Made by a program: the position numbers and the translations under genes. Positions 1 through 34,796 of a stretch of DNA of 64,000 nt are shown one piece after another. Positions within the stretch are counted from its first letter, which is position 1. Every line of letters starts with the position of its first letter. The notes beneath the pieces are model-generated. The model did not search any database. It worked only from the letters and a program-made list of their open reading frames with translations, and was not told the origin of the DNA. The stretch comes from Plazaster borealis (taxonomy: Eukaryota > Echinodermata > Asteroidea > Forcipulatida > Labidiasteridae), in the NCBI GenBank assembly GCA_021014325.1, contig CM037474.1:3724488-3788487 (forward strand), written 5' to 3'.

Positions 1-2619
1 AGAAAAAAGAAACTCCAGTTTTGCCGTCTTAAATGATTCTTGCATTGTCTTATTTTTGTGGTCTAAGGAAGTTCAATAGAGAAGGAGGGGGTAAGAGGTA
101 ATGGGGCAAGGGTAGTGGGCGTTTTTTGTTGTTTTTATTTCTCTCTTTTTAATTAGATATTTTTATTTTTTGAGGTAAAACTGCAAGGCTTACCCTCTAC
201 GATTTCGAGTAAACACTGAAACGTTTACCCCTTAGATCTTGTGTTCAAAGCATTGCAGTTTTTGATCAAAACCAAAAAGAAAACCTTGAAGTTTCTGCTA
301 AAAATTGAAAGCGTTGCAGTTTTCGATCACAATAGGGCATTTCCTGTCCGAATGATTATTATTTATTAATTTGTTTGGGGGTATAGGGGGGTTGAAGTAT
401 GTATTGAGGTCTTTAACAGTTAGATTATTTTGTATTTTGACGCAATTTTCGTTTGAAAATTTCAACATTAAAATAATGTCACCTTCAAAACATAAAATTT
501 ATTCCTACAAAATACTAATTTGAGAAACGAAACAAAAAACAAAAACCTATACCGTTTTTGGTTAGTTCTGATTAAATTTCACCGTTGCGTTAAATGATCT
601 CACATTAAACAAACATTAATTGGTTTATTTTAACCACCATTTAATAAACTTTATGTGTTTATTTATCATTACATATTATTCCACCCTTGAGTCGCATTTC
701 TGTTCATTACCGCGGGATCTTGCGGGAGCCAGTTGCGTATCCCTGTGGTCTTTGACAGGCACAGGTGATTGGAACCAGCCAAAGAAAACGACAGGTACCC
801 GATTACCGCTGCACACCAGATAAACATATAGGCCTAGTAGGGGTCGGGGTACTCGACGGCTTGATGCCGTGACGCGATATTCAAAATGGCCATCAGCCAG
901 GCATGTTCGGTATGTTTACACTGTGGACGTATTACCATCATTTTGATGTGATTTAATCAGATCTGGATTTATTGTATCTAGAGGTAAGCTTTATCTTGTA
1001 GTTCATTTAAGTTTAAAATGTAGAATAGGAATATGGCTCGTGGGAACCCGTGTTTAAACACTTAAATTGTCATAAAACGGGTAATGTTGTGGCATTTCTA
1101 TGTCCACCTTCATGCCCCTACGTAAACAACGGCACTTGACAACAGCCGGAAGTAGCTGTCGTTGGGCCCATTGTATGTGATTGTATTGTGCAATGGCGAC
1201 TTGCCGTCAATCAAATGAAACAATCGACATTTCTGTTTAGAGAATATGGGTTACGTAATCTCTAACCACTTGTAGTTTTCATAAATTGTATTTCTACCTC
1301 AATGCGTGGATGGTTGTATCTGAGATCAATGTGTGGGCCAACATGTTTCTAAAATGGAAAAAAGGGGAATTGCATGTAACGTGAGCTGTTGTAAACTGGG
1401 AAACTGCTTACCAAAAAAAGAAAGACCTGTGCTGTGGTGTCATCAAAATAATTATAATGGTCTCACGTGAATGAGGGGGGTTGGGTGGGTATCTGTTTGA
1501 AAATGAATTTGCTGATTTTAAGTTGTGATTTCCTTGAAACAATTACCGAATACAGAGAACGACGATACTGTGTAATTTTATTTCTGGTTGATAATGATAT
1601 TCAATGTTGTGTGTATTCGAAACTTGCCCAATTCACTATAAATAAATAAAATAAATAAATGAAAACAAGTGCAGTTATTCATAATCTAGGAACTTGGGTA
1701 ACAGTTTAAATTTGAGGACATTTTAATCGTTCATCTTTGGTTTAAAATGGTAGAATTTCAATATGAGCTCTTCGATAAAGGAACGTGTACGACCCATCAA
1801 TGTTTTAAAGACTTTTTGCCTTTTTTTCTTTGACGCAAATAATTAAAGTTTGAAGTAATTTTTTGAAATCGAAAATCGGGTTGTGCGGGCGTTTCAACAA
1901 AATTGTATAATTTTTGTATTATTAAAAAAAATTAACAGTGGTAATTCTGAGTTAGCACCTGAAAAAAAAATTGCCGCACAATCACTGCACATTAATTTAA
2001 AAAAGAGGATTCATGCAACGGCAAAATCCTCCTCAAAGACGCTTAATGCCCTTTGCAAAATAACAATTAGAAGCATGGCTATTGTACACAGCAAAAACAA
2101 ATCCTACGATTGTTACTATTGATGCTTTAGACAAATACGTAGGTATGAACAACATGAAGCAAAATTATTTTAAAAAACTAAAATTAGTGTTAATTCTAAA
2201 ACGAATTTATTTAAACAAAACAAAAGACAATGTCAATGAATTATTGTACCAAAAACCCTACCTGGAAAAAAAAAGAATTCCCCATATCGACCATTTAAAG
2301 AAACAGAATCCTTGGCTGAATTTATTTTCACAGTGTAAACAATTATGTATTTAACTCCCCAGGGTAAAAAAAACAACACCCGTAGGACTTGTTCCTAACG
2401 TATCATACAACAATCCAAATGAATTTTGCCTCATTGTCATCATCCCCCAAACAACTCTATCCGATTACCCTTTTGTAGTCCCCCCAAAAAAACAAAATTA
2501 ATAAATACCCCCCATCCAATATGATGGGGGTGCTGGAGTACTATAGCACCCCCTACCTTTCAAACGTAAGGCGAATCTAGCCGTCAAGTTGATGCACATT
2601 AGGAATTAGTTCGGCCATA

Positions 2620-4440
2620 AGTAAGAACTTATCTGTCGATGCTGTTTTGAACAAGAACAATTTTTCTTGAATATACAGTGCTGAATTTCCTTAGTGTTAT
2701 TTATGTTTAAAACAAAACGTTTTGTGGGGTAATTAAAAGAAAAATATGCCGATAAAATCCCACCTCCAGAAGGGACATTTAAGTGCCAAATAGTGGCTCA
2801 GATTTCACGACAGAGCATCTAGGACCCCGACACTTCCGGGGCCCTTAAGCGGGCCCCGGACCGCACGCCGTAATGGCTCGCGCTCCCCGCTCGCCGATTC
2901 TCTTGAAAATCCAGCAACCTTTGTCAAAAATGTGCTCTCGCGGGCCTGTTTAGTTCAATCCAGTCCATGGCCAAACCCGGTCTCTTTTTTTCAAGCCCTA
3001 ACGAAACCTCAACCGAACATGCCAAATCTAAAGAGATCACCGGTGAAATGTTTACTGCTAGCCCTTGCTACTTTCCACTGACCACGGCATGAGCCTCTAA
3101 AACCCTTTATATTCCAGCTCTAGCTAGGCATATTCCTTCATTCCACAACGAGTACTACCGAATCAGACACTCAAATATTATCCAACAAAAACACATGTGA
3201 AATTACGGCATGGCCCTTCGCTACAATTCATGTCCTTGGTGGTCACAATCCACCCATGGTCGTCAATCCGGCTCACCAGCCCACTGACCCTCTCCAATTC
3301 AATGCATCATCTCAGACTATACCGGTACCGTACCACGGAGAGTACCCACCAATCAACGCTGTTATTCCCGCCGTCATGTTGATCCCAGCTAGCCTTCTTG
3401 AGACCCGCCACCCTCCCCCGCAACCCCCCCCCGCAACAACCCCAGATGTATTCCCATCAGTAGTCAGACCAGTAATTCCCAATACCGTTTCCTATAAAAA
3501 TTATGAACTAATTTGCTATATCTACAGCTTGTGCCAAACTCAAATATTTTTTAAGTTCGAACGCAGCAGCGTAACTAGGCTAAAATTTCAGGGGGGCACA
3601 AGGGGGGTGCACCCTTTTTTCAAGGGGGGGCACTCCTGGCCAAGTTTCCCTTTGCTTTTTTCTTTAAAACAAGCCCATGCCCGTAAACGGGGGGGGGGGG
3701 GGTCGGACGGCCCCCTAAAAAAAGTAAACATAAAAATAAAATAAACCAATCAGCTATAAGAAATAAAGAATAAAAAAGTCTGCAAACAAAATTCTAATTA
3801 AAAAAGTCTGCAGCGTAACTGTGCAACTAATAAATAACACACTTAGCAAAACGTTTGTTCAGTCTGCTCATTATCGTTAAATTATGACATTTATAACATA
3901 CAATGATATACAAAGATGTAAATAGAGGACGCAATGGGTGGCATACGCAGTCTGAGCATTAAATATGCAGAAATAATATTGATACAAAGCTGTAATTGAG
4001 TTGTTTTCAGATATAATAACCAATATCATAGCGCAAAAATGGTGCACCAAATGGCTTGAAATGGGCATTCTTTTTTACAAAATTTCGAACTTCTGAGAGG
4101 GGGGCACATCCTCCTCCCACTTTCTCCTGCGTCGCAAAGGGTCCCCTGTTACCACTCACAAATGATTTATTAAGTATATAAAGCAAGGGTTTCCCATGCC
4201 GTAGTACACTGCGTACTAGGATACCAATATTAACTGTTACACTATGCCCCTTTTCAGTCATGGCTTCGGCTTGGCTCTGGCTTAGGCTCCACCCACTTGT
4301 TTGAAACCCTATACCGTATGTGCACGTTTTCAAAATAACTGACAGAGTCTAAGCCAGAACCCAAGCTGAAGCTGTGGTTTTGAAAAGGCCTGGATGTTAA
4401 AGTAAATATAAACATCCGATAATTGTTTTACTTTGTTGTT
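2620..4440. other. Left-arm-specific segment, partly GC-rich
   Basis: Mirror homology breaks near 2,615 (right-arm partner near 31,172) and resumes near 4,405 (partner near 30,545). The intervening sequence is about 1.8 kb here but about 0.6 kb, and unrelated, in the right arm. Positions 2,820-3,500 are richer in G+C than their surroundings. They hold a proline-rich open frame running from about 3,124 to 3,744 with no domain I recognise. Positions 3,575-3,720 and 4,080-4,150 contain G-rich tracts of dispersed-repeat character. The segment may be a remnant of a retroelement or other insertion. Confidence 0.6.
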
Positions 4441-4448
4441 TTTTACAG

Positions 4449-4500
4449 CCTGCTGGCAGAACAAAGATCTACAAAATAAACATCCTTATTTCATCTATTG
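4449..4500 (+). other. Exon-like 52-nt block, left copy
   Basis: A T-rich tract ending in TTTTTTACAG precedes the block, and GTAAGT follows it directly. An equally long copy (30,447-30,498, minus strand) keeps both splice signals. One frame is open (AGRTKIYKI within it), but 52 nt is not a multiple of three and the peptide is too short to assign. It could be a real internal exon of a duplicated gene or a non-coding transcript exon. The pairing of both splice sites in both arms is what supports it. Confidence 0.4.
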
Positions 4501-4844
4501 GTAAGTAAACATGTTACACAATAATTCATATTGGACGCTTATGGGTGCATCGTTGCAAACGCTTCCATTTCATGAGCAGAGTGAAATGGAAAAGCCAGAT
4601 TTCAGATCCTTGTAATTTGAATTGAAAAGATTTTTACAATAAACACGAATGAGACACGGAAACTCCTTTGTGTGAGTTCAATGTATTTCATTCGGGAATT
4701 GTCACAGAATACAATCACTCAATGAAATCTGGCTTTTCATTCACCTTGAGAAATGGAATAGTCCAAGTTTCACCTGAAATATTATTTTCTGGGAAATGCA
4801 CTCGAATGCAACCAATCTTTGTATAAACACAGGCTTGGATTTTC

Positions 4845-5010
4845 ATCTTTGGGAGGGCAAGGCCATTTACATTTTGCAAAGGGCAGTTGTATTGGAAAAT
4901 CTTAAGGTCTATGGGAAACTTTTGAAGGGACATCAAGGCCAAGACCAGGGGCAACAGAGGCCAAAGCCTCCGTGTAATTCCAGCCCTGTTAACATTGGTT
5001 GGCCATGAGG
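4845..5010 (+). repeat. Dispersed repeat, GGGCAAGG family
   Basis: This copy carries the family's characteristic pieces: 'gggcaaggcc', a block resembling 'ggaaaatcttaa', then 'gggacatcaaggcca'. Mirror copy at 29,945-30,125. Related copies lie near 10,130, 25,130, 46,110, 53,260, 56,985 and 59,225. The overlapping short open frames are by-products of the repeat. Confidence 0.6.
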
Positions 5011-5049
5011 TAGCAGACGCAAATCGAGTTGTGCGGGAAGACAAGGGGA

Positions 5050-6100
5050 GACTCCGGAAGGCACTTTTTTTCCTTTTTTTAATTACTGAAAAATGTTTGG
5101 GCCAATTCCGCTGAAACTACATGTAATCCTCAATGAAACCCTCTAGTTTGACATTCTAAAGTCACCTTTAACATTGAGCGCTGTACATACAGGTCAGGCA
5201 TATTGTGGGATAGCTTGGGCTCCAGCCGAAGCTTATTCATTTGTGTACAGTGTATAAGCCCATTGTGTTGTGTGCAGATCTAATCCCCTTGAGTTTCACC
5301 ACTGCCAAGCTAGCAAAGCTCAATGCTATGAGTCTAGCGACAGGTTGTAAATAAACAGAGAAGGGATTGTGTCAACCAAACAATGTTATATACGCGTAAT
5401 AGAAACTGCCTTCCGTGAGCTCCCCTTTGGCTACGCGTGTAATTTGAAGGGGGGTGCAGCTCGCAGCCGGGTTTCTTAAGGCTCATTGATCCTGTACTAT
5501 AATGGCTGTAGACATCTAACTTGATACACCCATCTTTTTTAAATTTTATGTATGTAACACCCTTGTAAACTAATTCCTAAAATTAATAAAAGAAAATCTT
5601 TCTATAAGGCCACATAAAAATAAAAAATTGTTGATCGTCCTTTTTTGATGGGAAGTGGGAGAGGGAGGGCGTTTTTTTTTTTTTTGACATGGCAAAATAT
5701 GAAATAAAGAATAAAGATATCATCATAATCACTATAAAACAAATGGTTTGTGTGATTTTGATGTTTTCAAATGTTTTGTTAAACCCTTTCAAATCCTAGA
5801 TGACATTTTCTGTAAACATTTTCAAAAAACTAAATTGCAGCCTAAGTAAATATTTGAAGAATTTTTCTTGTTTTGCGAACATGAATAATCTTTCTTCAAT
5901 CATCTGTTTCCGACCTACGGATTTTGAAAAAAATATCAGCTAAACAAAATTCTGGGAGCCAAGTTTGACTGAAAAGATCATTAAAAATACCGTTTTTTAT
6001 GATTAAAAAAAAAAATTGGGGTCGGGGGGTTTTGTAGGGTCGGGTGGGGACGATCAACAATTTTATTTTCTTATGTGGCCTAAGATCACTGCTCTTTTTT
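5050..6100. other. Arm sequence without recognisable features
   Basis: AT-rich arm sequence without a convincing frame. It contains a T homopolymer near 5,671-5,685. Confidence 0.4.
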
Positions 6101-6109
6101 TTACTGGAT

Positions 6110-6370
6110 CAAAACTTCAGTTCAAACCCAAAGCCTAACCCTAACCCCATTTCCAAATTTAACCCTAACCCCTTTTTTTACTGGATCAAAACTTCAGTTC
6201 AAACCCAAAGCCTAACCCTAACCCCATTTCCAAATCTTACCCTAACCCCTTTTCAAATCTAACCCTAACCCCTTTTCAAATCTAACCCTAACCCCTTTTC
6301 AAATCAAACCCTAACCCCATTTTCCACCAAAACTCTAACCCCGTTTTCCACCCTAACCCTAACCTCGTTT
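6110..6370 (+). repeat. Telomere-like 23-bp tandem repeat, short left copy
   Basis: The core is AACCCTAACCCC followed by TTTTCAAATCT, in roughly eight to ten imperfect units. The first part includes a longer direct duplication of the flank (about 6,100-6,165 and 6,175-6,235). This is the C-rich complement of the much longer right-arm array at 28,985-29,790. The CCCTAA cores resemble metazoan telomere repeats, but the regular non-telomeric spacer marks an interstitial satellite. Confidence 0.85.
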
Positions 6371-6659
6371 CAAAATCTAACGATTTTTTTCAGTTTGAAA
6401 AATAAATTAAAAATCTCACTTCTGTTTAAATTTCATTATTGAGAAACGCAATTTTTTTCAGGACATTTTCAGTTTAATGCCAACTGAAAATAGACAAAAG
6501 TTTGGCCGTGATTCAAAATTGAATGTTGTTTTAATATTATTATGGTTTCATTTTTGTGTGCAGATCTCATGTGGATATTTGGAATCTATTATTAGACGAG
6601 CCGCACGCGCGACAAAACAACCCAGCTCTGAGAACAAGTTGGACAAGTTGATTCCTACA

Positions 6660-7265
6660 TGGACAGCAACGTCTGCTGATTCCTACAACGTCTGATTCCT
6701 ACATGGACAGCAACGTCTGATTCCTACATGGACAGCAACATCTGATTCCTACATGGACGGCAATATCTGATTCCTACATGGACAATCTGATTCCTACATC
6801 GACAGCAACGTCTGATTCTTACATGGACAGCAATATCTGATTCCTACATGGACAGAAACGTCTGATTCCTACATGGACAGTAACGTCTGATTCCTACATG
6901 GACAGCAATGTCTGATTCATACATGGACAGCAATATCTGATTCCTACATGGACAATCTGATTCCTACATTGACAGCAATATCTGATTCTTACATGGACAG
7001 CAATATCTTATTCCTACATGGACAGCAACGTCTGATTCCTACATGGACAGTAACATCTGATTCCTACATGGACAGCAATGTCTGATTCCTACATGGACAG
7101 CAATATCTGATTCCTACATGGACAATCTGATTCCTACATTGACAGCAATATCTGATTCTTACATGGACAGCAATATCTGATTCCTAGAGGACAGCAACGT
7201 CTGATTCCTACATTGACAGTAACATCTGATTCCTACATGGACAGCAATGTCTGATTCCTACATTA
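6660..7265 (+). repeat. 25-bp tandem repeat, left array
   Basis: About 24 units of a 25-bp motif containing TCTGATTCCTACATGGACAG. Some units are shortened (for example GGACAATCTGATTCC), and variants AACG, AATA and AATG follow the CAG. The mirror array is at 28,020-28,665 in the opposite orientation. There are no unique spacers, so it is not a CRISPR array. Confidence 0.92.
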
Positions 7266-7269
7266 AGAG

Positions 7270-7905
7270 ACTCATGTGAGGCTATGGTTACCTCAAGAAT
7301 GATCATCACAAACATCCGTTTTAAGAGAGTACTCGGTTTGAAGGGTGTGCTCAATTTTTCTTTTGTCATGTTTTTTTGTGTTGCAAAACAATAAATAATC
7401 AATTTTTTCATATTTAGTTTTCCGTTTCAAACTTGCATAATCAAAAGACAGTGTGCAAGACTTTGAAATGATTATGTTTAAAACTGAAGAATTTTACAGT
7501 TATTCATGATCCATATCATCAGTTTTGGCATCTACATCAAAAGGTTAAAATAATTGATATGCAAAAAAATGACATGTCAATGATTTTCTGATAAAAAGTA
7601 TTGTCAAAGTAACAACCAATATTCTAGGTTTACTTTAAATACTGATAAGTAAAGTTATTGATGTAATTTAAAAAACAATTGTAAATAAAATGGTAAACTT
7701 TAAGAATCTAAATTTTCTTTCTGTCTGATTGTCATCTTTTTGTGTCATACATGTATTAGTTGAGAAAGATTAGTATGCGAAATGGAAACTTAAAAAAAAG
7801 GAAACAAACATGTAAAAATATCTTCACAAGTTTTTAAATTTTATTTAATCAAAAAGCAAACAAGTTATTTTTTTCTGGTGGCGATACAATTTTAAAATAA
7901 ATAAA
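7270..7905. other. AT-rich arm sequence, nothing assignable
   Basis: The segment is mirrored at about 27,500-28,015. I see no convincing frame or repeat unit in it. Confidence 0.4.
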
Positions 7906-7913
7906 TAATGTCA

Positions 7914-8005
7914 ACAGAGGGCGCCCTTTAAGGTACAATCGAGCAAGGCATTCTGGGAAAGAAAACAAAATGGCGCGGCGAGATCGTACACCATGGGAAC
8001 GAGGT
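7914..8005 (+). promoter_or_regulatory. Promoter-like block conserved in both arms
   Basis: The block has GAGGGCGCCC (CTCF-like core), then GCATTCTGGGAAA (resembles a ZNF143-type element), then AAAATGGCGCGGCG (YY1-like). The mirror block at 27,415-27,500 keeps the motifs. Such clusters mark metazoan promoters, but no transcript start can be shown from sequence. A dispersed repeat carrying these words is the alternative. Confidence 0.25.
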
Positions 8006-8104
8006 TGTTATATTATAGATACTGTACAGTGTACATGCACGTACATTAGTGCATCACATTTCGTTCTAATATTCATCAGGTCCAAAAATGTATGCTCCAA
8101 CCCG

Positions 8105-8455
8105 GAACAAGCGGTGGTCCAGTGGATAAGCGCACGCAAATGAAGGGACAAGATCGGAAGACCTGCATGGTTCGAACCCCGGCCAGGACAAGCAAAGACA
8201 AGACCAAGAGATCAAGACAAGAAGAGGACACGCAAGAGGAACGCACACGGACCCCACGAGACGCAAAGAAGAGGAGGCAACACGGAGGAGATACACAGGA
8301 GGGACAAGTGGACACGGAGAGGACGATGGAGGGGAGAGAGAGAGAGAGAGAGAGAGGGGTGGTGGAGGTGGACCGGGCAGGAAAGGGAAGACGAAAATTT
8401 ATTTAATTTATTTAATTTTTTATTTTTTATTTAAAAAAAAAAAAAAAAAAAAATT
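8105..8455 (+). mobile_element. tRNA-derived SINE, left copy
   Basis: The 5' part has pol III promoter boxes: A box TGGTCCAGTGGATAAG near 8,116 and B box GGTTCGAACCCC at 8,169-8,180. The body is purine-rich with a (GA)n run near 8,337-8,356, and the element ends in an A-rich tail. It cannot be a working tRNA gene because the sequence between the boxes does not form a normal anticodon arm and the 3' half is missing. Mirror copy at 26,965-27,307. The open frames across it come from the purine-rich body. Confidence 0.75.
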
Positions 8456-8610
8456 AACGGTCTTTCATTTTCTTAAAATCGCCTGAAACGTGTGCTCGTT
8501 AATTATTTTCATTTTTCATTAAAAAAAAAAAAAAAAAAAAAAAATCCAAATTTTTTTTAATTAATGGTCTTTCATTTTCTTAAAATCACCTGAAACGCAT
8601 GCTCGTTAAT
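8453..8610 (+). repeat. Short tandem duplication behind the SINE
   Basis: The string GGTCTTTCATTTTCTTAAAA followed by 'cgcctgaaacg' or 'cacctgaaacg' and GCTCGTTAATTA occurs at about 8,459 and again at about 8,565, separated by a poly-A run. The right arm has the same duplication at about 26,805-26,965. Confidence 0.7.
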
Positions 8611-8614
8611 TATT

Positions 8615-9580
8615 TTTCAAAAAAATTTTTTTGTTGAAATTTTACACCTAAAAATCATTAAAAACGAACATTTTTTTAAATTATAACCTCCAAAACACCC
8701 TTAAACGGTGCAGAACACACTTCCTAATGTTCTTTTTAACATTCTACATGACTAATGCATTCTGGTGACAAACAATTTCACAGGAAAGTGTCATTTGTAA
8801 TAAATTAATGCTTATTTACAACTCTATGACGTTATTTGTAAGTGCTATACACAATTTCATTGCACAGAATCACGTATTTGTGACTATCCCTTCAAACTAC
8901 TTCTTATTTAAGGGCCTAAAACGTTATTTTCATTCAAAACATCTTTAAAAATGGTCAGTGTAAGTACCAAGAACATCTGCATTAACTGTACTATGTTAAT
9001 TACACCAAATAACATTCCATTTCTTAATTGATTTCAATAATTAACTAAGAATTGTTAAGCTGTCATATTAAAAGCTTGTAAAAGGCCCATGAGAAAACAC
9101 GTGATTTGCAGTTAATATTGTCCTTGATAACACATTAGCCAAGTGTTACAAGTAAATCAAAACAAGTGAGTGAAGAAATTAGTCTGGCACCTACATGTAT
9201 CATTGATATTTAAGGTTGTATTAGCACTTGGAGACAGGGAATTAGACAATAAAAGTTGTCCAGAGTAAAGTCAAAATTAGAAGCTTAAAAGGACCATTCG
9301 CATTTTCAAGTTTCCAAGTTAAATGTATCAAAGAAACATAAAAATAAGATAACTATGCATTTTGGGGTTCTCATAGATTTGCAGAATCTAGTTTTCAAGA
9401 TAAAACTGTGGAAAGATAAAGTACTACAAGTTTAACTTAGATTTATGCAAATGCAGACATTCACTCTGAGCTTCCATATTTGGATTCTGTTAAAACTGAA
9501 GGCCCTGTTGGTTTGTACGATGTTTTGCTGATAAATATCATCATGCATAATATAAAGACATCAAATTTGTCAAGCACTCA
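8615..9580. other. AT-rich arm sequence, nothing assignable
   Basis: Closely mirrored at about 25,780-26,800. No persuasive coding frame or RNA structure is visible, although the similarity is continuous over about 1 kb. Confidence 0.4.
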
Positions 9581-9584
9581 GCTG

Positions 9585-9866
9585 GGGCCAATTTCATAGA
9601 GCTGCTTAACGGCCGATTTTGTGCTAACTGCGCGAGTTTCCATTTCAAAGCACTGCCAACCATAAGCTCACGAAAAGGCATGCTAACCTTCTGGTGCATA
9701 CTGTAGGAAAATGAGTGACGTAACAAGGCAAATCCACGCTGAAAGCGCAAGCTTGACTGCCAATTTTCTTCCTGTTAAATAAAGTTACGCCTTAAAGCAA
9801 ATTCTTCTGCTATAGTTAGCACGAAAATTTGCTTACCGCTAACCAGCGCTATGAAATTGGCCCCCG
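9585..9866. mobile_element. MITE with GGGGCCAATTTCATAG termini, left copy
   Basis: It begins GGGGCCAATTTCATAGAGCTG and ends as the complement, CAGCGCTATGAAATTGGCCCC. The termini are inverted repeats of about 25 bp around a non-coding core. The mirror copy is at 25,546-25,774. Related ends occur at about 34,797, 35,152, 37,686 and 59,300. Confidence 0.75.
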
Positions 9867-10129
9867 ATCTGTTTACAAGTCCTGTTTAACTTTACATACG
9901 TACAATAAGATTGCAAGATTTTCACTACATTGTATGCCGAACATTATAAAGTAATACAATTTTAGTCTGAAAACACTGCTTTGACACAAATATGAGGCAA
10001 TTCTTAATCTATACTTGTGTATATTTTGAAAAGAATCCTTGGTGTAACAATGTGATGCATTGACGAGTTAGGAACAAGATTGATTTCTTCTTTTCAGATT
10101 ACGCATGATTCAGGCCTGATATTTCGTTC

Positions 10130-10290: not shown

Positions 10291-10543
10291 CAAAGGAATT
10301 ACAAAATATATACAAAAATACTCAGCAAACATTTAACAACAAAAGGACCAAGATATACTCGCTACATTACAAAATCAGTCCCATAGGACCGCAGACGACA
10401 AAGATCTGTTTACGCAGTAAAAAGCTTTGAATTGAAATCATAGCTTTGGTGTAAACAACAAACAATCTCATGTCTGAGAGGTTTTAAGAGTCCATGTAAA
10501 CAGATCTTTTTACAATAAGTAAAACTCACTACGTGAGACGTAC

Positions 10544-24545: not shown

Positions 24546-24699
24546 TTACCCCTTGGAATGTACAACACTTTTCTACCAATCTATTTCCACCACTATAATC
24601 ATCAGCCCCTTCTACAAATTGTATTACATGTATGCAATCTGTTTTCCACTTGGTTTTTAACTCATGCATTAATTTTCTCCTTTGAATTTCTGTTTATAG

Positions 24700-24861
24700 A
24701 ACACTCAAGATGATGACGAACCTTGGTATGAAAGTTGCGCCAGCTTGACTGAAGAAAGCCCATGAGATGCAGCATCATCATGAATTCAAGTTCATCATCT
24801 TCTCACCGTCTCAAGCTACTTCAGTTCAACTTTGTAATTCATTCAATACTAGGATATTAAG
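24700..24861 (+). other. Exon-like block A, right arm
   Basis: The acceptor tract ends TTCTGTTTATAG and the donor is GTACGT at 24,862. The length is 162 nt, identical to the left copy. The opening frame reads TQDDDEPWYESCASLTEE, then SP and TGA at 24,763-24,765. The frame closely matches the left copy, with one clear coding change (C to R in the left copy). The downstream 96 nt is non-coding in this frame. Confidence 0.45.
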
Positions 24862-25129
24862 GTACGTCTCACGTAGTAAGTTTTACATATTGTAAAAAGA
24901 TCTGTTTACATGGACTCTTAAAACCTCTCAGACATGAGATTGTTTGTTGTTTACACCAAAGCTATGAGTTCAATTCAAAGCTTTTTACTGCGTAAACAGA
25001 TCTTTGTTGTCTGCGGTCCTATGGGGCTGTTTTTGTAATGTAGCGAATAGCGAGTATATCTTGGTCCTTTTTTTGTTAAAAGTTTGCTGAGTATTTTTGT
25101 ATATATTTTGTAATTCCTTTGAATCATCA

Positions 25130-25290
25130 GGCCTGATACCTCAAGAAGCCCAATGGCGCAACTACCTCCATGCACTCGGTCTGGTTCATTGCCTTGGTGT
25201 CCATTGAAATGTTCCAGTACTAATTTAAATTTCCAATCATAGTCTTCCATTTAACTGAGGAAAAGCTGCCTTGCCCTAACAAGAACGAAG
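25130..25290 (-). repeat. Dispersed repeat, GGGCAAGG family
   Basis: Mirror of 10,130-10,290, including the terminal 'atcaggcctgat' words and TTGCCCTAACAAGAACGAAG. Confidence 0.6.
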
Positions 25291-25545
25291 TATCAGGCCT
25301 GAATCATGCGTAATCTGAAAAGAAGAAATCAATCTTGTTCCTAACTCGTCAATGCATCACATTGTTACACCTAGGATTCTTTTCAAAATATACACAAGTA
25401 GATTAAGAATTGCCTCATATTTGTGTGAAAGCAGTTTTTCAGACTAAAATTGTATTACTTTATAATGTTCGGCATACAATGTAGTGAAAATCTTGCAATC
25501 TTATTGTACGTATGTAAAGTTAAACAGGACTTTTAAACAGATCGG

Positions 25546-25774
25546 GGGCCAATTTCATAGCGCTGGTTAGCGGTAAGCAAAACCATAGCAGAAGAATTTG
25601 TTTTAAGGCGTAACCGTATTTAACAGGAAGAAAATTGTCACTCATTTTCCTACAGTATGCAACCGGAAGGTTAGCATGCCTTTTCGTTAGCTTATGGTTG
25701 GCAGTGCTTTGAAATGGAAACTCGCACAGTTAGCACAAAATCGGCCGTAAGGCAGCTCTATGAAATTGGCCCCA
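25546..25774. mobile_element. MITE with GGGGCCAATTTCATAG termini, right copy
   Basis: Mirror of 9,585-9,866. The termini GGGGCCAATTTCATAGCGCTG and CTCTATGAAATTGGCCCC are intact, and the core is shorter than in the left copy. Confidence 0.75.
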
Positions 25775-25779
25775 GCTGA

Positions 25780-26960
25780 GTGCTTGACATGCTATAGATA
25801 CTTATTTTGGTTTTCATATGCGGTAAATTTGATGTCTTTATATTATGCATGATGATATTTATCAGCAAAACATTGTACAAACCGAGCAGGGCCTTCAGTT
25901 TTAACAGAATCCAAATATGGAAGCTCAGAGTGAACGTCTGCATTTGCATAAATGTAAGTTAAACTTGTAGTACCGGTACCGGTACTTTATCTTTCCACAG
26001 TTTTATCTTGAAAACTAGATTCTGCAAATCTATGAGAACCCCAAAATGCAGTTATCTTATTCTTATGTTTCTCTTTGATACATTTAACTTGGAAACTTGA
26101 AAATGTGAATGGTCCTTTTAAGCTTCCATACAATTTTGACTTTACTCTGGACAACTTTTATTGTCTAATTCCCTGTCTCCAAGTGCTAATACAACCTTAA
26201 TTATCAATGATACATGTAGGTGCCAGACTAATTTCTTCACTTACTCGTTTTGATTTACTTGTAACACTTGGCTGATATGTTATCAAGGACAATATTAACT
26301 GCAAATCAAGTGTTTTCTCATGGGCCTTTAACAAGCTTTTAATATGACAGCTTAACAATTCTTAGTTAATTATTGAAATCAATTAAGAAATGGAATGTTA
26401 TTTGGTGTAATTAACATTGTACAGTTAATGCAGATGTTCTTGGTACTTTACATTGACCATTTTAAAAGATGTTTTGAATGAAAATAACGTTTTAGGCCCT
26501 TAAATAAGAAGTAGTTTGAAGGGATAGTCACAAATACGTGATTCTGTGCAATTAAATTGTGTATAGCACTTACAAATAACGTCAGAGCTGTTTAGAGTCG
26601 TAAATAAGCATTAATTTATTACAAATGACACTTTCCTGTGAAATTGTTTGTCACCAGAATGCGTTAGTCATGTAGAATGTTAAAGAGGACACTAGGAAGT
26701 GTGTTCTGCACCGTTTAAGGGTGTTCTGGAGGTTATAATTTAAAAAAATGTTCGTTTTTAATGATTTTTAGGTGTAAAATTTCAACAAAAAAATTTTTTT
26801 GAAAAATAATTAACGAGCATGCGTTTCAGGTGATTTTAAGAAAATGAAAGACCATTAATTAAAAAAAATTTGGATTTTTTTTTTATTTTATTTATTTTTT
26901 TATGAAAAATGAAAATAATTAACGAGCACACGTTTCAGGCGATTTTAAGAAAATGAAAGA
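25780..26960. other. AT-rich arm sequence, nothing assignable
   Basis: Closely mirrors about 8,460-9,580. A CGGTACCGGTAC insertion near 25,973-25,985 is a small arm-specific difference. Confidence 0.4.
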
Positions 26961-26964
26961 CCGT

Positions 26965-27307
26965 TAATTTTTTTTTTTTTTAAATAAAAAATAAAAAATA
27001 AAATAAATTAAATAAATTTTCGTCTTCCCTTTCCTGCCCGGTCCACCTCCACCACCTCTCTCTCTCTCTCTCCCCTCCATCGTCCTCTCCGTGTCCACTT
27101 GTCCCTCCCGTGTGTCTCCTCCGTGTTGCCTCCTCTTCTTTGCGTCTCGTGGGGTCCGTGTGCGTTCCTCTTGCGTGTCCTCTTCTTGTCTTGATCTCTT
27201 GGTCTTGTCCTTGCTTGTCCTGGCCGCCGGGGTTCGAACCATGCTGGTCTTCCGATCTTGTCCCTTCATTTGCGTGCGCTTATCCACTGGACCACCGCTT
27301 GTTCCGG
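26965..27307 (-). mobile_element. tRNA-derived SINE, right copy
   Basis: Minus-strand copy of the 8,105-8,455 element. The B box reads GGTTCGAACCCC in reverse near 27,230-27,241 and the A box lies near 27,285-27,296. The (TC)n run and A-rich tail are retained. Confidence 0.75.
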
Positions 27308-27414
27308 GTTGGAGCATACATTTTTGGACCTGATGAATATTAGAACGAAATGTGATGCACTAATGTACGTGCATGTACACTGTACAGTATCTATAATATA
27401 ACAACCTCGTTCCC

Positions 27415-27500
27415 ATGGTGTACGATCTCGCCGCGCCATTTTGTTTTCTTTCCCAGAATGCCTTGCTCGATTGTGCCTTAAAGGGCGCCCTCTGTTGACA
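27415..27500 (-). promoter_or_regulatory. Promoter-like block, right-arm mirror
   Basis: CGCCGCGCCATTTT, TTTCCCAGAATGC and GGGCGCCCTC are retained in the order expected from 7,914-8,005 reversed. Retention in two diverged arms is suggestive only. Confidence 0.25.
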
Positions 27501-28019
27501 TTATTTATTTATTTTAAAAATTGTATCGCCACCAGAAAAAAATAACTTGTTTGCTTTTTGATTAAATAAAATTTAAAAACTTTTGAAGACATTTTTAATG
27601 TGCACATGTTTGTTTCCTTTTTTTTAAAGTTTCCATTTCGCACACTAATCTTTCTCAACTAAATACATGTATGACAACAAAAGATGACAAGTAGACAGAA
27701 AGAAAATTAAGAATCTAAAAGTTTACCATTTTATTTACAATTGTTTTTTAAATTACATCAATAACTTTACTTATCAGTATTTAAAGTAAACCTAGAATAT
27801 TGGTTGTATACTTTGACAGTACTTTTTATCAGAAAATCATTGACATGTCATTTTTTGCATATCAATTAATTTAACCTTTTGGTGTGGATGCCAAAACTGA
27901 TGATATGTGTCATGAATAACTGTAAAATTCTTCAGTTTTAAACATAATCATTTCAAAGTCTTTCACAGTGTCATTTGATTATGCAAGTTTGAAACGGAAA
28001 ACTTAATAATATTTGCTGA

Positions 28020-28665
28020 TAATAATATTTGCTGTCCATGTAGGAATAAGATGTTACTGTCCATGTAGGAATCAGATGTTACTGTCCATGTAGGAATTAG
28101 ACGTTACTGTCCATGTAGGAATCAGATATTGATGTCGATGTAGGAATCAGATGTTACTGTCCATGTACGAATCAGATATTGCTGTATGTAAGAATCAGAT
28201 ATTGCTGTCCATGTAAGAATCAGATATTGCTGTCGATGTAGGAATCAGATGTTACTGTCCATGTAGGAATCAGACGTTGCTGTCCATGTAGGAATCAGAC
28301 GTTGCTGTCCATGTAGGAATCAGATATTGCTGTCCATGTAAGAATCAGATATTAGTGCTGTCGATGTGGGAATCAGTCGTTGCTGTCGATGTAGGAATCA
28401 GATGTTACTGTCCATGTAGGAATCAGACGTTGCTGTCTATGTAAGAACAAGGGGTTGCTTTCATGTAGGAATCAGATGTTACTGTCCTGTGTCCATGTAG
28501 GAATCAGACAATTCTGTCCATGTAGGAACCAGACAATGCTGTCCATGTAGGAATCAGATGTTACTGTCCATAAAACAATCAGATATTGCTGTCCATGTAG
28601 GAATCAGATGGTACTGTCCATGTAGGAATCAGACGTTGCTGTCCATGTAGGAATCGGACACAACT
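28020..28665 (-). repeat. 25-bp tandem repeat, right array
   Basis: About 25 units containing CTGTCCATGTAGGAATCAGA. Several units are irregular (for example near 28,360, 28,445 and 28,485), making this copy noisier than the left one. Confidence 0.92.
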
Positions 28666-28984
28666 TGTTCTCAGAGCTTGGTTGTTTTGTCGCTCGTCTA
28701 ATAATAGATTCAAAATATCCAGATCAGATCTGCACACAAAAATGAAACCATAATAATATTAAAACAACATTTAATCTCAATACTATGTTTGAGTCACGGC
28801 GGCCAAAATTTTGTCTTTTTTCAGTTGGCATTAAACTGAAAATGTCCTGAAAAAAATTGCGTTTCTCAAAAAGATATAATGAAATTTAAACAGAAGTGAG
28901 ATTTTTATTTTATTTTTAAAACTGAAAAAAATCGTTGATCTCAAAGGAACAAAATTATGTTTTTTATGTTTCTCAAAAAATCAT

Positions 28985-29790
28985 TTGAAATGGTGGTAGG
29001 GTTAGGAATTAGGGTTTGGTTAGATTTTGAAACGGGGTTAGGGTTAGGGTTAGGGTGGAAAACGGTGTTAGAATTTTGGTGGAAAATGGGGTTAGGGTTT
29101 GATTTGAAAAGGGGTTAGGGTTAGATTTGAAAAGGGGTTAGGGTTAGATTTGAAAAAGGGGTTAGAGTTAGATTTGAAAAGGGGTTAGGGTTAGATTTGA
29201 AAAAGGGGTTAGGGTTAGATTTGAAAAGGGGTTAGGGTTAGATTTGAAAAGGGGTTAGGGTTAGATTTGAAAAAAGGGGTTAGGGTTAGATTTGAAAAGG
29301 GGTTAGGGTTAGATTTGAAAAGGGGTTAGATTTGAAAAGGGGTTAGGGTTAGATTTGAAAAGGGGTTAGGGTTAGATTTGAAAAGGGGTTAGGGTTAGAT
29401 TTGAAAAAAAAGGGTTAGGGTTAGATTTGAAAAGGGGTTAGGGTTAGATTTGAAAAGGGGTTAGGGTTAGATTTGAAAAGGGGTTAGGGTTAGATTTGAA
29501 AAAGGGGTTAGAGTTAGATTTGAAAAAGGGGTTAGGGTTAGATTTGAAAAGGGGTTAGGGTTAGATTTGAAAAGGGGTTAGGGTTAGATTTGAAAAGGGG
29601 TTAGGGTTAGATTTGAAAAGGGGTTAGGGTTAGATTTGAAAAAGGGGTTAGGGTTAGATTTGAAAAGGGGTTAGGGTTAGATTTGAAAAGGGGTTAGGGT
29701 TAGATTTGAAAAGGGGTTAGGGTTAGATTTGAAAAAAGGAGTTAGGGTTAGATTTGGAAAGGGGGTTAGGGTTAGGCTCTGGGTTTGAAC
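28985..29790 (-). repeat. Telomere-like 23-bp tandem repeat, expanded
   Basis: More than 30 units of GGGGTTAGGGTTAGATTTG plus AAAA, with A-run length varying from 4 to 8. The plus strand is G-rich, with runs able to support G-quadruplexes. The left copy has only about eight to ten units, so this array expanded, or the other contracted, after the arms separated. Confidence 0.93.
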
Positions 29791-29944
29791 TGTTAGAGAA
29801 TGTTTTTCTTTAATTAATTTTAGGAATTAGTTTACAAGGGTGTTACATATATACATAAAGTTTCTAAAAAGTTGGGTGTATCAAGTTAGATGTCTACAGC
29901 TATTTTATTACAGGATCAATGAGCCCTAACGACTCGATTTCCGT

Positions 29945-30125
29945 CTGCTACCTCATGGCCAAGCAATGTTAACAGGGCTGGAATTACACGGAGGCCTTGG
30001 CCTCTGTTGCCCCTGGCCTTGGCCTTGTTGTCCCTTCAAAAGTTTCTCATAGACTTTAAGATTTTCCAATAGAACTGCCCTTTGCAAAATGTAAATGGCC
30101 TTGCCCTCCCAAAGATGAAAATCCA
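29945..30125 (-). repeat. Dispersed repeat, GGGCAAGG family
   Basis: Mirror of 4,845-5,010. It reads through GGCCTTGGCCTCTG and TTGTCCCTTCAAAAG on the plus strand. Confidence 0.6.
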
Positions 30126-30446
30126 AGCCTGTGTTTATACTGCAAATATTGGTTGCATTCGAGTGCATTTCCCAGAAAATAATATTTCAGGTGAAACCTG
30201 GACTATTCCATTTCTCAAGGTGAATGAAAAGCCAGATTTCATTGAGTGATTGTATTCTGTGACAATTCCCGAATGAAATACATTGAACTCACACAAAGGA
30301 GTTTCTGTGTCTCATTCGTGTTTGTTGTAAAAATCTTTTCAAATTACAAGGATCTGAAATCTGGCTCATGAAATGGAAGCTTATGCAACGATGCACACAT
30401 AAGCATCCAATATAAATATGAATTATTGTATAACATGTTTACTTAC

Positions 30447-30498
30447 CAATAGATGAAATAAAGACGTTTATTTTGTAGATCTTTGTTCTGCCAGCAAG
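30447..30498 (-). other. Exon-like 52-nt block, right copy
   Basis: Minus-strand partner of 4,449-4,500. The acceptor TTTTTTACAG and donor GTAAGT are both conserved and the length is identical. The few differences inside change one open-frame peptide slightly (INILIS to INVFIS). Confidence 0.4.
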
Positions 30499-30549
30499 CT
30501 GTAAAAAAACAACAAAGTAAAACAATTATCGGGTGTTTATAATTACTTT

Positions 30550-31170
30550 AAAACATTGTGTAAAAAAATTAAAATGTTGTTTGAAAAACTTCAGAAAATT
30601 TACCACATTTTGTGTTAAATAACTAAAGGTCATTTTGAGAGAAACTTGAGCATTTTAAAAGTAAAACAAACAATTAGCGCTTGACCTAGAAAAAATAAAA
30701 CGATTCAAATTTAAAGAATATGGAAGGGGAACAAGATAAATAAAATTATACCAGAACTCTTTTCCATTTGGTTAAAGGCATTGAACACGTAAGAAGTTTT
30801 TATTATTTTAGTGAGAAATTACCTCTTTCTCAAAAACTACGTTACTTCAGAGAGTCGTTTCCTACAATGTTTTATACTATCAACAGCTCTCCGTTGCTTG
30901 TTACCAAGGAAGTTTTTGTGCCAATATTTGTTTTGAGACATTACCAAACGTGTACGATACCTTTAAGTTGTTTATTTATGTTAGGTTACATGTATATAAG
31001 CAGTGTTTTCGTATGTTAAAAAATTGATTCATCATGTCCCTGTCACCACATTATCCCAATTAGGATTTCCTTTTATATCCAGTTTGCAGTCACAATGAGT
31101 AAATAAAAAGTCCCCATCCAAAAACATTTTCTCTATTGCAACAGATGCCCTCTCAGACAAAATCACGGGG
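30550..31170. other. Right-arm-specific segment
   Basis: Occupies the place of the left-arm segment 2,620-4,440 without similarity to it. It includes the MITE listed next. Confidence 0.5.
30772..30968. mobile_element. Short MITE, TTAAAGG termini
   Basis: Begins TTAAAGGCATTGAACACGTAAG and ends TACCAAACGTGTACGATACCTTTAA, which are imperfect complements. Words such as 'tactatcaacagctctccgttgcttgttaccaa' suggest a very abundant echinoderm repeat family (recollection, not a search). Confidence 0.6.
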
Positions 31171-33190
31171 CCGAACTAATTCCTAGGTGCATCAACTTGA
31201 CGGCTAGCTTCGCCTTACTTTTGAAAAGTATAGGGGGTGCTATATAGTATTCCAGCACCCCCCCCCCCCATCATACTGGATGGATATTGATATTGGATGA
31301 GGGGGGACTACAAAAGGGTAATCGGATAGAAGAGTTGTTTGGGGGATGATGACAATGAGGCAAAATTCATTTGGATTGTTGTATGATACGTTAGGAACAA
31401 ATCACACGGGTGTTGTTTTTTACACTGGGGAGTTAAATGCATTAAATTGCACACTGTGAAAATAAATTCAGCCAAGGATTCTGTTTCTTTAAATGGTCGA
31501 TATGGGGGATTCTTTTTTTTCAGGTAGGATTTTCGGTACAATAATTCATCGGACATCGTCTTTTGTTTTGTTTAAATAAATTCGTTTTAGAATTAATACT
31601 AATTTTAGTTTCTTTATAATTTTGCTTAATGTATTTGTTCATACCTACGTGTTTATCTGAAGCATCAATAGAAATAATCGTATGATTTTTTTTCTGTGTA
31701 CAAATTGTAAAAATGTTCTTATTTATAAATAATTTTATAGCCATGCTTCTAATTGTTATTTTGCGAAGCGCATTAAGCGTCTTTGAGGAGGATTTTGCCG
31801 TTGCATAAATCCTCTTTTTTAATAATACAAAAATTCTACAATTTTGTTGAAACGCCCGCACAACCCGATTTTCGATTTCAAAAAATTACTTCAAACTTTA
31901 CTTATTTACGTCAAAGAAAAAGGCGAAAAATCTTTAAAACATTGATGGGTCGTACACATTCCTTTATCGAAGAGCTCATATTGAAATTCTAACATTTTAA
32001 ACCAAAGATGAACGATTAAAATGTCAAACAAAAATTAAACTGTTACCCAAGTTCCTAGATTATGAATAACTACACTTGTTTTCATTTATTTATTGTATTT
32101 ATTTACAGTGAATTGGGCAAGGTTCGAATACACACAACATTGAATATCATTATAAACCAGAAATATAAATACATGAGTATCGTCGTTCTCTTTATTCGGT
32201 AATTGTTTCAAGGAAATCACAAGTTAAAATCAGCAAATTTATTTTTCAAATAGATGCCCACTCAACCCCTTTCATTAAAACTACGGTGTCTTAAAAAGAC
32301 AAACAATTTGGTACGTTCAGGGTAAAGGACCGTAGGTGCCAAACTTTAACCCGTTTTAGAACGTCAACCTCTGAGAAAGACGATCTGCAAAGGTCGAAAC
32401 GCGAGACCATTATAAATTGTTTTGATGATACCACAGCACAGGTGATTTTGTTTGGTAAGCAGTTTACAACAGCTCACGTTACATGCAATTCCCCTTTTTT
32501 CCATTTTAGAAACAATGTAGGCCCACTGATCTCAGATACAACCATCCGCGCATTGAGGTAGAAATACAATTTATGAAAACTACAAGTACATGATAAAAGA
32601 TTACGTAACCCATGTACTCTAAACAGAAAAGTCGATTGTTTCATTCATAGAGCAAGGACCATTTGAGTGACGGCCAGACGCCATTGACTGGCACAATACA
32701 ATCACATACAATGGGATGGGCCCAACGTTACAGCTACTTCCGGCGTTGTCAAATGCCGTTGTTTACGTGGGAGCATGAAGGTGGACAGAGAAATGCCACA
32801 ACATTCCCCGTTTTATGTCAATCTTAGTGTTTACACGGGTTCCCACGAGCCCTATTCCTATTCTACATTTTAAACTTAATAAAGCTTACCTCTAGATACA
32901 ATAAGTCCAGATCTGATTAAGTCACATCAAAATGATCGTAATACATCCACAGTGTAAACATACCGAGCATGCCTGGCTGCTGGCCATTTTGAATATCGCG
33001 TCACGGCATCAAGCCGTCGAGTACCCCGACCCCTACTAGGCCTATATGTTTATCTGGTGTGCAGCGGTAATCGGGTACCTGTCGTTTTTTCTTTGGCTGG
33101 TTCCAATTACCTGTGCCTGTCAAAGACCACAGGGGTACGCAACTGGCTCCCGCAGAAATGCGATAGTCTGTATATTCAAGGCTGGAATTA

Positions 33191-34117
33191 TGGGTGCGTT
33201 CGATTAGCTTCCCCGGGTCGACCCAGGGGTGCGTTTTGGCGACCCCGACCAGAAACATGCTTGAGCTTTGGTCATTGGTTGAGCGTTTTCGTGTGTTCGT
33301 TTGAACCACGGTGACGCGGCTGTTCCGACCAAACCGTAACCATAGGCTTGGTTTCAAGATGGCGAACTCTAAAAAATGTCAATGAAATTCTTTTAAAAAT
33401 GAAATAACTTCAAGCATAACAATTAAATAATGTTGATAAAATTGCAAAGACTAAGTTCCCGTATACTAATAGACTGAAGGTTTTATATTTTAAGAACATG
33501 AATTTTCAAGAGATGTACCTATAACGTCATGAACTGTTTCTGGTTACCGACCCGTTTTTGCGTAGCTCTCGGAAATTGTTTCGGTCAGTGAACTTGTTTC
33601 CGGTCATGGTCGCCAAAACACGCCCCATCGGTCTCCCCGGTGCGTTCGAATAGCTTTGACGTCATTTTCGGGGCTCACCCGGGTCAGCCCCTATGTAACG
33701 TGCTTGTTGAGCGGGTCACTTGGGGCTGACCGAGGTGCATGAATGATGTCACGACGAAAATATTTCTCAATGGCCACCATTAATATGTTTTCACCCTTAA
33801 AACAGCGACTTTGTGGGCAATAAGTATTTTTATATTCGAGGACGAGACCCAACTTGTGTATCAACGTGGGCTTTTACATAAATTAACGCTGCAGTTTTAC
33901 CTTGAGAATAATTATTTTAAGATCTTTTCGTGAATCCACGGACGTAATGCACACACATGGGAAATAGTTTCGGTCGGTTGTCCGACTGATGCATCGTGTG
34001 AATGCTGGAGGGGGGGGGGGGGGGGGGGGGGTTGGCGTTTGATTAGCTCATCTCAGGGGCTCACCCGGATGAGCACACCTGGATCGACCCGGGGAAGTTA
34101 ATCGAACGCGCGCAAAC
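33191..34117. mobile_element. MITE inserted in the right arm only
   Basis: The ends are inverted repeats of about 33 bp: GGTGCGTTCGATTAGCTTCC onward at the left and GGAAGTTAATCGAACGCGCG at the right. Both sides are flanked by CTGTATATTCAAGGCTGGAA, followed by TTA or TAA (33,168-33,190 and 34,118-34,140). The left arm has a single uninterrupted site (about 680-705, reverse complement). The element contains a nested second MITE, internal copies of similar ends near 33,648, and a G homopolymer near 34,013-34,031. Confidence 0.8.
33226..33626. mobile_element. Nested MITE, GGGGTGCGTTTTGGCG termini
   Basis: GGGGTGCGTTTTGGCGACC pairs with GGTCGCCAAAACACGCCCC. The same family is found at 60,263-60,661 and as a fragment at 44,835-44,966. 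Confidence 0.75.
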
Positions 34118-34796
34118 CTGTATATTCAAGGCTGGAATAATCTTTAATGATAAATAAACACATAAAGTTTAATAAATGGTGGTTAAAATAAACCAATTAA
34201 CGTTTGTTTAATGTGAGATCATTTAAGGCAACGGTGAAATTGATTAAGAACTCAAAATAGGGTCTAGATTTTTTGTGTCGTTTCTCAATTTGTGGAATAA
34301 ATTTTATATTTATTTTTGAAAGTGACATTATTTTATTGTTCAAATTTTCAAACGTAAATTGCGTCAAAATACAAAATAACTGTTAAAGACCTCAATGCAC
34401 CCCAATAAAAAGAGAGAAAGAAACAATGTGGTAATTGTGATACAAACTAAAAGTTTTCGGCCACGAAATGCCCTTTTGTGATCGAAAACTGCAAGGCATA
34501 CAATATTTAGTAGAAACTACAAGGCTCTTACCCCTTTTGGTTTTGATCAAAAACTGCCTTTGAACACAAGATCATAAGGGGTAAACGTTGCAGTGCTACC
34601 TCAAAAAATAAATAATTAAAAAAGAAGAAAAAAAACCAACAAAAAACGCCCACTATATACCCTTGCCCCAAAAAAGAGACAATGCAAGAGTCATTTAAGA
34701 CGGCAAAACTGGAGTTTCTTTTTATTACACATGGGTTTTAACTCACGTCACATGCAGTACACAGTCGTTCCTGCCAGGCCTACCAAAGGTTACATT

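Follow-up and report, generated by a model that had tools for sequence, protein, structure and literature searches.

A dispersed family of palindromic duplications in a sea star genome, with one locus at which the right arm was probably copied over the left and into local DNA

The window analysed here, a 64,000-nucleotide stretch of the Plazaster borealis genome, probably contains one locus (C20) of a dispersed set of palindromic segmental duplications (duplicons), with a left arm overwritten by a copy of the right in a tract that ran into local DNA. Each unit comprises an arm, a spacer and an inverted arm, with the same satellites and relic exon-like modules in every arm, plus a single tRNA-like module. 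The arm core has at least 40 copies in the assembly, and six pairs among the 40 scored lie on opposite strands no more than 20 kb apart, the minus copy first in each. These six pair loci lie on three chromosome-scale contigs (C20; C12a and C12b; C21x, C21y and C21z), and all six have the same architecture of arm, spacer and inverted arm, with a conserved spacer block (15000-16374 in the window) between the arms of each. Arm cores at the five other loci, on two other contigs, are 84-89% identical to the C20 arms. The unit spans ~24 kb at C20, measured from 23-bp array to 23-bp array, and this locus lies next to UBE2H. Among the papers listed in literature searches, none described this palindrome family, which is no proof of absence.

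Inverted alignments confirmed the mirrored order of the two arms that an initial annotation had described. Positions 7411-13846 and 28008-21477 form a single inverted match (9156 bits, 90.7% identity), and collinear mirrored order reaches window position 4 against 34723. The arm end previously placed at 34724 is merely the mirror of window position 1; the proposed upstream self-comparison, run with 40 kb of added DNA, extended the arms to -179 (negative coordinates lie upstream of window position 1) and 34895. The left arm thus occupies 1-13719 and upstream to -179 on the plus strand, and the right arm, the presumptive donor, occupies 19147-34895 on the minus strand. Larger arm segments are 88-97.5% identical in gapped alignments with gaps left out, and there are many length differences of at least 30 bases; left 2673-4393 and right 30555-31115 allow no proper alignment. 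With gaps excluded, the C20 core is 97.4% identical between arms (3404 aligned bases) and the outer flank 93.4-93.9% (about 2450 aligned bases).

All three tandem arrays are present in both arms, as the initial annotation had it: a 23-bp array (6096-6381, plus; 29082-29775, minus, with a unit containing GGGGTTAGGGTTAG), a 25-bp array (6691-7263, plus; 28029-28655, minus) and an 81-bp array (10886-13719, plus; 19147-24489, minus). Open reading frames as long as 1735 aa within the 81-bp arrays were rejected as genes, since the array period is divisible by three. The exon-like modules likewise occur as one set per arm. Namely, E2' (10577-10731, minus) and E2 (24674-24828, plus) both have broken frames, as do most outer E copies read, and on the inner sides lie E1' (13933-14055, minus), which keeps an open 41-codon reading, and E1 (18597-18757, plus). 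Within the spacer, a first-exon-like reading (15735-15800, minus) runs into GTAAGT and has similar counterparts at other loci; a second, on the opposite strand (16160-16305, plus), is frame-broken at C20. Inspection of 24.65-28.05 kb by eye showed no clear codon periodicity, and a PDB search found no relative for the E1' reading. Outside the element, a LINE-like frame had ten relatives in a protein search.

The inner region (13720-19146) holds the diverged E1'/E1 modules and the spacer. The segment 13722-14094, directly inward of the left 81-bp array, still resembles its counterpart on the right: identity is 60% across 410 alignment columns when gaps are counted, and reaches 74% in an 87-column piece. 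The 4.5-kb spacer first proposed between the arms is therefore present but partly mirrored, with inner modules 60-74% alike. The one MITE that could be defined, with TAGCCC ends, lies once, inserted in this spacer at 17399-17981 between 9-bp direct repeats (17390-17398 and 17982-17990); the initial annotation had suggested a MITE in each arm. Its own inverted ends account for an inverted match (17438-17617 with 17763-17940) that had pointed to a palindrome centre near 17690. A flipped spacer at C21z suggested internal inversion by arm-arm recombination, which we rejected: the left C21z arm is closest to the right C21x arm (94.7%) and the right C21z arm to the left C21x arm (96.3%), so the whole C21z unit is reversed.

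Arm types differ among loci. The pair on contig C21 is heterotypic, joining an A arm with flank alpha to a B arm with flank beta. Among 11 arms, a beta probe matched three (both C20 arms and the right C21x arm), and alpha probes matched the other eight, including all five other left arms in the set. The beta outer flank (29790-30552, minus) is common to the right C21x arm and mirrored in the C20 left arm. By sequence, both C20 arms appear B-like and carry beta. They are nearer B by identity (88.5-89.8%, vs 84.3-87.3% for A) and fall outside the group of A plus C12 arms (support 0.996 in one tree, 1.000 in another); since they do not branch from within the B arms of C21, 'B-like' is the strongest label for them. 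The C12 right arms are also A-like, with an alpha-like flank, so the A/B scheme holds for C21 only. Four single minus-strand copies (L004, L005, L006 and L008) are B-type.

Homogenization within loci is uneven. Within-locus arm identities are 97.5% at C20, 97.4% at C21y, 91.3% at C21z, 89.0% at C21x, 88.5% at C12b and 86.6% at C12a. The C20 arms form a sister pair, and so do the C21y arms (support 1.000 each); at both loci the two arms resemble each other more closely than they resemble any arm of another locus. This is not so at C21x, C21z or C12a, and each C21x or C21z arm joins arms from elsewhere in the tree rather than its own partner. The C12b arms are sisters at 0.822 in one tree but not in another, with 88.5% identity to each other and 90.2% between C12b+ and C12a3. 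C21y looks homotypic in the opposite sense (A-A) to C20.

At C20, divergence between the arms rises outward, from 2.64% in the core to 4.82% in the beta flank (p 0.0025 against the core) and 6.1-6.6% in the outer flank (p 3e-13 against the core). A faster-evolving beta flank was considered as the source of this rise and dropped, because beta flank and core differ alike from the right C21x arm (11.2% and 9.3%, p 0.19, gap-free on both). Faster evolution of the outer flank may lie behind its 6.1-6.6%. That flank (30553-34895, minus) begins beyond the stretch shared with the right C21x arm; 31116-34895 is mirrored in the left arm, apart from 33155-34125, which occurs on the right only. In the C12 and C21 DNA examined, it matches only as scattered short pieces.

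We propose that at C20 the B-like right arm overwrote the left one during repair between the two inverted arms, through long-tract gene conversion or break-induced replication. Copying would have started inside the 81-bp array and proceeded outward; the inner boundary of the tract probably falls in the left 81-bp array, and the inner modules are still diverged, so the copied tract is one-sided. It would then have overrun the shared unit by ~4.3 kb into local DNA and ended within a dispersed repeat, with end joining at -179. The copied flank is now more diverged than the core, from which we infer that arm-to-arm conversion later acted on the core again, at least once. For scale, the sections of PMC3723533 on human palindrome P6 describe long directional conversion tracts with minimum lengths up to 9023 bp.

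The outer ends of C20 are consistent with such a termination. A dispersed repeat (34812-34989) is whole on the right, and the left arm's copy breaks off at the equivalent of 34895. The repeat is also whole at six further places in the DNA examined (79-83% alike). Counting against this reading, further copies also break near the same point, with two C21x pieces stopping at the equivalent of 34905. No direct word of at least 4 bp occurs at the C20 boundaries (±3 bp), and the best nearby direct word, of 5 bp, is at chance level. The junctions thus lie in arbitrary sequence with no target-site duplication, as for an inverted segmental duplication or palindrome, whose usual yardstick of at least 1 kb and ~90% identity, including non-satellite DNA, the C20 core and outer flank both exceed. 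These results support the inverted segmental duplication that the initial annotation had listed as its main alternative. Across the 11 arms, the point beyond the 23-bp array at which homology ends varies from locus to locus, so there are no common termini.

C20 might instead have had no prior left arm, a one-armed unit having been duplicated in inverted orientation by fold-back or template switching that took arm and flank in one step. A single founding event would be enough, C20 flank and core are both mirrored, and fold-back priming near inverted repeats yields inverted duplications in yeast, according to the parts of PMC10622511 on that process. We nevertheless regard this origin as unlikely: the five other loci read are all two-armed around the same spacer, the left inner module E1' is present and old, and one event leaves the lower divergence of core than flank unexplained.

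Sea urchin TU elements are foldback transposons, and the initial annotation had favoured a giant element of this type. A non-autonomous foldback transposon with satellite-bearing inverted ends would account for multiple copies on several contigs and for long inverted arms with three tandem arrays each; foldback elements do bear tandem repeats in inverted ends, as the account of Tetris in PMC4079207 describes. Against it stand the missing target-site duplication, ends that vary by locus and an alpha flank that continues past the 23-bp array for kilobases at both C12 and C21 and is absent at C20. A Pfam scan of 140 stop-free frames (left arm, spacer and right-only stretches) also gave no convincing match and no convincing transposase domain. 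Ten families matched in one frame each, the best being HTH_33 (E 0.008), which we take as about chance level for 140 scans. The HTH_33 domain also occurs in some transposases. In aggregate, these observations make a transposon quite improbable. Less credible still is an assembly artefact joining two haplotypes or repeat copies head to head. In a polymorphic marine invertebrate, alleles could differ as much as these arms do (2.6-6.6%), and assemblers can be misled by satellites; however, five more loci, on two further contigs, show the identical architecture, the inner modules share no more than 60-74% identity, core and flank are diverged to different degrees, and the C20 sequence is unbroken, with no N.

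Each C20 arm also carries the SINE-like element reported earlier, a tRNA-like module with an A box, a B box, a purine-rich body and a T-run just beyond (8044-8384, plus; 27030-27365, minus). tRNA-derived SINEs and Pol III RNA genes have internal A and B boxes. Boxes, body and T-run are kept in all 17 arms scanned, using motif patterns drawn up after inspection of the alignment and leaving out L007 and L008; the A-box-like and B-box-like motifs are 55-56 bases apart, and the first T-run (at least 4) falls at +265 to +304. Between C12 and other arms the module is 93-94% alike and its flanks 81-84%. In the 314 kb examined, module matches comprise the 11 arms present and nothing else. Rfam matched nothing, this module included, and two-sided changes occurred in none of 28 predicted pairs (17 sequences of the module head), giving no compensatory changes for a fold. 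The module may be a Pol III RNA gene. More speculatively, and with considerable doubt, selection on a putative Pol III-type non-coding RNA gene in each arm could sustain the scattered palindromes, with repeated arm-to-arm copying, in opposite directions by locus, homogenizing arms and sometimes drawing local flank into the family, in an ampliconic-Y-like but RNA-gene-centred system.

The best-documented cases of arm-to-arm conversion are sex-chromosome palindromes. Separate loci in heterotypic (A-spacer-B) or homotypic (A-A, B-B) states would serve as natural replicates that reveal, without pedigrees, which way copying ran, how long its tracts were and how they spilled into flank. Overrun at the edge would be a route by which a duplicon gains local DNA and grows, and function could be put to a concrete test in the conserved tRNA-like module.

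The module resembles tRNA-derived SINEs and Pol III RNA genes in its A/B-box-like motifs followed by a body ending in a T-run, but differs in occurring once per arm at a fixed place and in being better kept than its flanks between C12 and the other arms. Tetris of Drosophila virilis, as presented in the relevant text of PMC4079207, is similar in its inverted tandem-repeat-bearing arms, its middle domain and the lack of a conserved ORF; its TIRs reach 1,735 bp with 8-10 bp TSDs, whereas C20 has ~14-16 kb arms, no TSD and variable ends. Fold-back inverted duplications, in the portions of PMC10622511 that treat them, likewise invert a copied segment together with its flank and leave a junction without target duplication, but at C20 an arm that was already there seems to have been replaced by the copy. 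Human Y P6 and other sex-chromosome palindromes, as characterized in the pertinent sections of PMC3723533, share large inverted arms around a spacer, homogenization within a locus and inferred long directional tracts. Their arms are >99.9% alike, whereas arm cores here are 86-97.5% alike within loci, and the present family is multi-locus, with pairs on three chromosome-scale contigs, satellite-filled arms and a tract that appears to overrun the arm into local DNA.

Self-comparison of the window bears out the large inverted repeat described in the initial annotation: a chain of inverted matches runs from the first bases to ~34.7 kb, and the three mirrored tandem arrays, of 23-, 25- and 81-bp units, are present in both arms. 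The repeat end placed at 34724 merely mirrors the window's own edge. With 40 kb of upstream DNA added, the mirror terminates at −179 (upstream of the window) on the left and 34895 on the right. No target-site duplication was found at these outer ends, and the idea of a giant foldback transposon is without support; the alternative offered at the time, an inverted segmental duplication, proved right. Most likely the locus is a palindromic duplicon of a dispersed family: one of its arms replaced the other, bringing local DNA along, and the arm core was later retouched.

Outside the 81-bp arrays, gapped alignment of the two arms gives 88–97.5% identity in the larger segments (gaps left out), with many indels and one non-aligning stretch (left 2673–4393 versus right 30555–31115). 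In the right arm only, 971 bases at 33155–34125 are bounded by direct repeats (TGTATATTCAAGGCTGGAAT), representing either a right-side insertion or a left-side deletion. The 23-bp satellite unit (6096–6381 and 29082–29775) includes GGGGTTAGGGTTAG, two telomere-like repeats in a chromosome-internal position. Because just two among left units 2–36 of the 81-bp array have an exact right-hand partner, and the right array is the more homogeneous, the two arrays have undergone separate turnover. Within the right array (20.4–23.8 kb), a block of units appears repeated in the same unit order ~19 units (1.54 kb) on, a sign of recent turnover.

The proposed search for further copies, using a 2.5-kb query from the right arm against the assembly (560.6 Mb, 717 contigs), returned at least 40 scored places, each matched over ~1.5 kb or more and 38 of them outside the window; this count is a lower bound, since scoring covered just the best 40 of 4038 first-look candidates, a set that does not include the arm C12a1. 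They fall on contigs C21 (15), C12 (6), C20, on which the window occupies 3724488–3788487 (2), and C18 (1), with 16 on small contigs. Some small-contig copies (99.1–99.9% alike) are, by their similarity, probably second haplotypes. Two pairs of single arm copies on different contigs, L006 (C21:14.897 Mb) with L007 (C652) and L005 (C612) with L008 (C562), are 99.9% and 99.7% alike, respectively; these are likely unmerged haplotypes, so arm-copy counts may be inflated. Opposite-strand neighbours <20 kb apart occur six times among the scored places, every one minus then plus: the window locus (C20), C12a and C12b (C12 at 2.56 and 3.31 Mb), and C21x, C21z and C21y (C21 at 16.62, 17.53 and 19.17 Mb). 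In the inter-arm DNA read, the spacer block (window 15.0–16.37 kb) lies between the arms at all six pair loci, and C12a has an additional tandem arm-plus-spacer copy, C12a1.

Core trees group C21x-left, C21z-right and both C21y arms as type A, adjoined by all five C12 arms; the type B side comprises C21x-right, C21z-left and the six single copies L003–L008. C21z proved to be the whole C21x unit in reverse orientation, and a spacer flip there was dropped. Both C20 arms fall outside the A-plus-C12 group (support 0.996 and 1.000 in two core trees), and we call them B-like because they are nearer by identity to B arms (88.5–89.8%) than to A arms (84.3–87.3%). Arms within a locus are 97.5% identical at C20, 97.4% at C21y, 91.3% at C21z, 89.0% at C21x, 88.5% at C12b and 86.6% at C12a. 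The C20 pair and the C21y pair are each sister arms with support of 1.000; the C12b arms are sisters at 0.822 in one core tree and not in the other.

The most conserved core part between C12 and other arms is a tRNA-like module, one per arm (window 8044–8384 and 27030–27365), at 93.1–93.8% against 81.0–83.6% in its flanks; it ranked top of 101 sliding windows, whose median is 81.9%. The right C20 arm compared with B arms shows less of an excess (93.4% versus 86.0–89.9%). Each of the 17 arms in the scan, which left out L007 and L008, contains motifs 55–56 bases apart that we take to be A-box-like and B-box-like, using patterns written after viewing the alignments. The module body is 201–240 nt and 75–81% purine in these arms, and the first T-run of 4 or more lies at +265 to +304. 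Within the 314 kb of DNA examined, only the 11 arms present matched the module, which had no match in Rfam and showed no compensatory changes supporting a fold; it is possibly an arm-specific Pol III RNA gene, with a SINE as the alternative.

The E modules resemble an exon, window 14055–13933 reading 41 codons; both outer copies at C20 are broken, as are most others read. On opposite strands of the spacer, ~370 bases apart, lie two readings that resemble a first exon, both of which continue into GTAAGT. The minus-strand reading is similar at C20, C12a and C21y; C21x and C21z retain the similarity in part, and C12b has an altered version. For the plus-strand reading, C12a2 has an open frame and C20, C21x and C21z a broken one, with no match at C21y. 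A divergent promoter belonging to an old pair of genes is one possible reading.

A MITE at 17399–17981, which we take to be Mutator-like, has TAGCCC ends, inverted ends of ~180 bp and 9-bp direct repeats; its 39 other scored copies are 97–98% identical over ~585 bp and it was thus recently active. On the minus strand at 41577–41900, a frame with ten relatives lacking names in a protein search and no match in Pfam resembles the terminal part of a LINE reverse transcriptase. Two tRNA-Leu predictions (42734–42823 and 54360–54449) lie within a dispersed repeat and are probably SINE copies. Two minus-strand exons of UBE2H (ubiquitin-conjugating enzyme E2 H), at 41131–41367 and 55659–55841, match PDB 2z5d at E values of 3.5e-21 and 1.5e-8, which places UBE2H in the right flank of the inverted repeat.

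Two flank types, alpha and beta, occur past the 23-bp array. In a set of 11 arms, from C20, C12, C21x and C21y, the beta probe (window 29790–30552) matches three, both C20 arms and C21x-right, and alpha probes match the remaining eight; among left arms, alpha is found on five of six and beta on C20-left only. C12 right arms also bear an alpha-like flank, counter to a tidy A-alpha/B-beta scheme, so beta may be a state limited to the C21/C20 lineage. The C20 arms diverge by 2.64% over the 3404 aligned bases of the core. The stretch separating the 23- and 25-bp arrays shows 3.7% (271 bases), the beta flank 4.82% (747 bases) and the outer flank 6.1–6.6% (two alignments, of 2444 and 2496 bases, after dropping short poor blocks); the core differs from the beta flank at p 0.0025 and from the outer flank at p 3e-13. 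A faster-evolving flank does not account for the beta step: from C21x-right, the right C20 arm differs alike in core (9.3%) and beta flank (11.2%; no significant difference, p 0.19). A putative later conversion of the core does account for the step. At C21y, core (2.55%) and alpha flank (2.92%) diverge alike (p 0.75), the pattern expected of a single event.

The outermost left-arm sequence at C20 breaks off inside a ~175-bp dispersed repeat whose right-arm copy is complete (34812–34989). The repeat is also complete over 34813–34984 at six other places in the DNA examined (79–83%); two shorter pieces at C21x terminate near the equivalent of 34905, so breakpoints in this part are not unique. Because the left end is broken in a repeat that is whole on the right, and because of the flank type, the sequence evidence says that the right arm was copied to the left. 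The right arm shares homology with C21x-right up to 30552, so 4.3 kb of mirrored flank lies beyond the shared unit; the inner modules of the two C20 arms are only 60–74% alike. The copied tract would start within the 81-bp array and reach −179, a left-arm length of 13.9 kb. C21y, whose arms are both type A and both carry alpha, would represent copying in the opposite direction. As mechanism, we infer inverted-arm repair, either by long-tract conversion or by break-induced replication, closed by end joining. For the human palindrome P6, one report infers directional conversion over tracts of 9 kb or more (PMC3723533).
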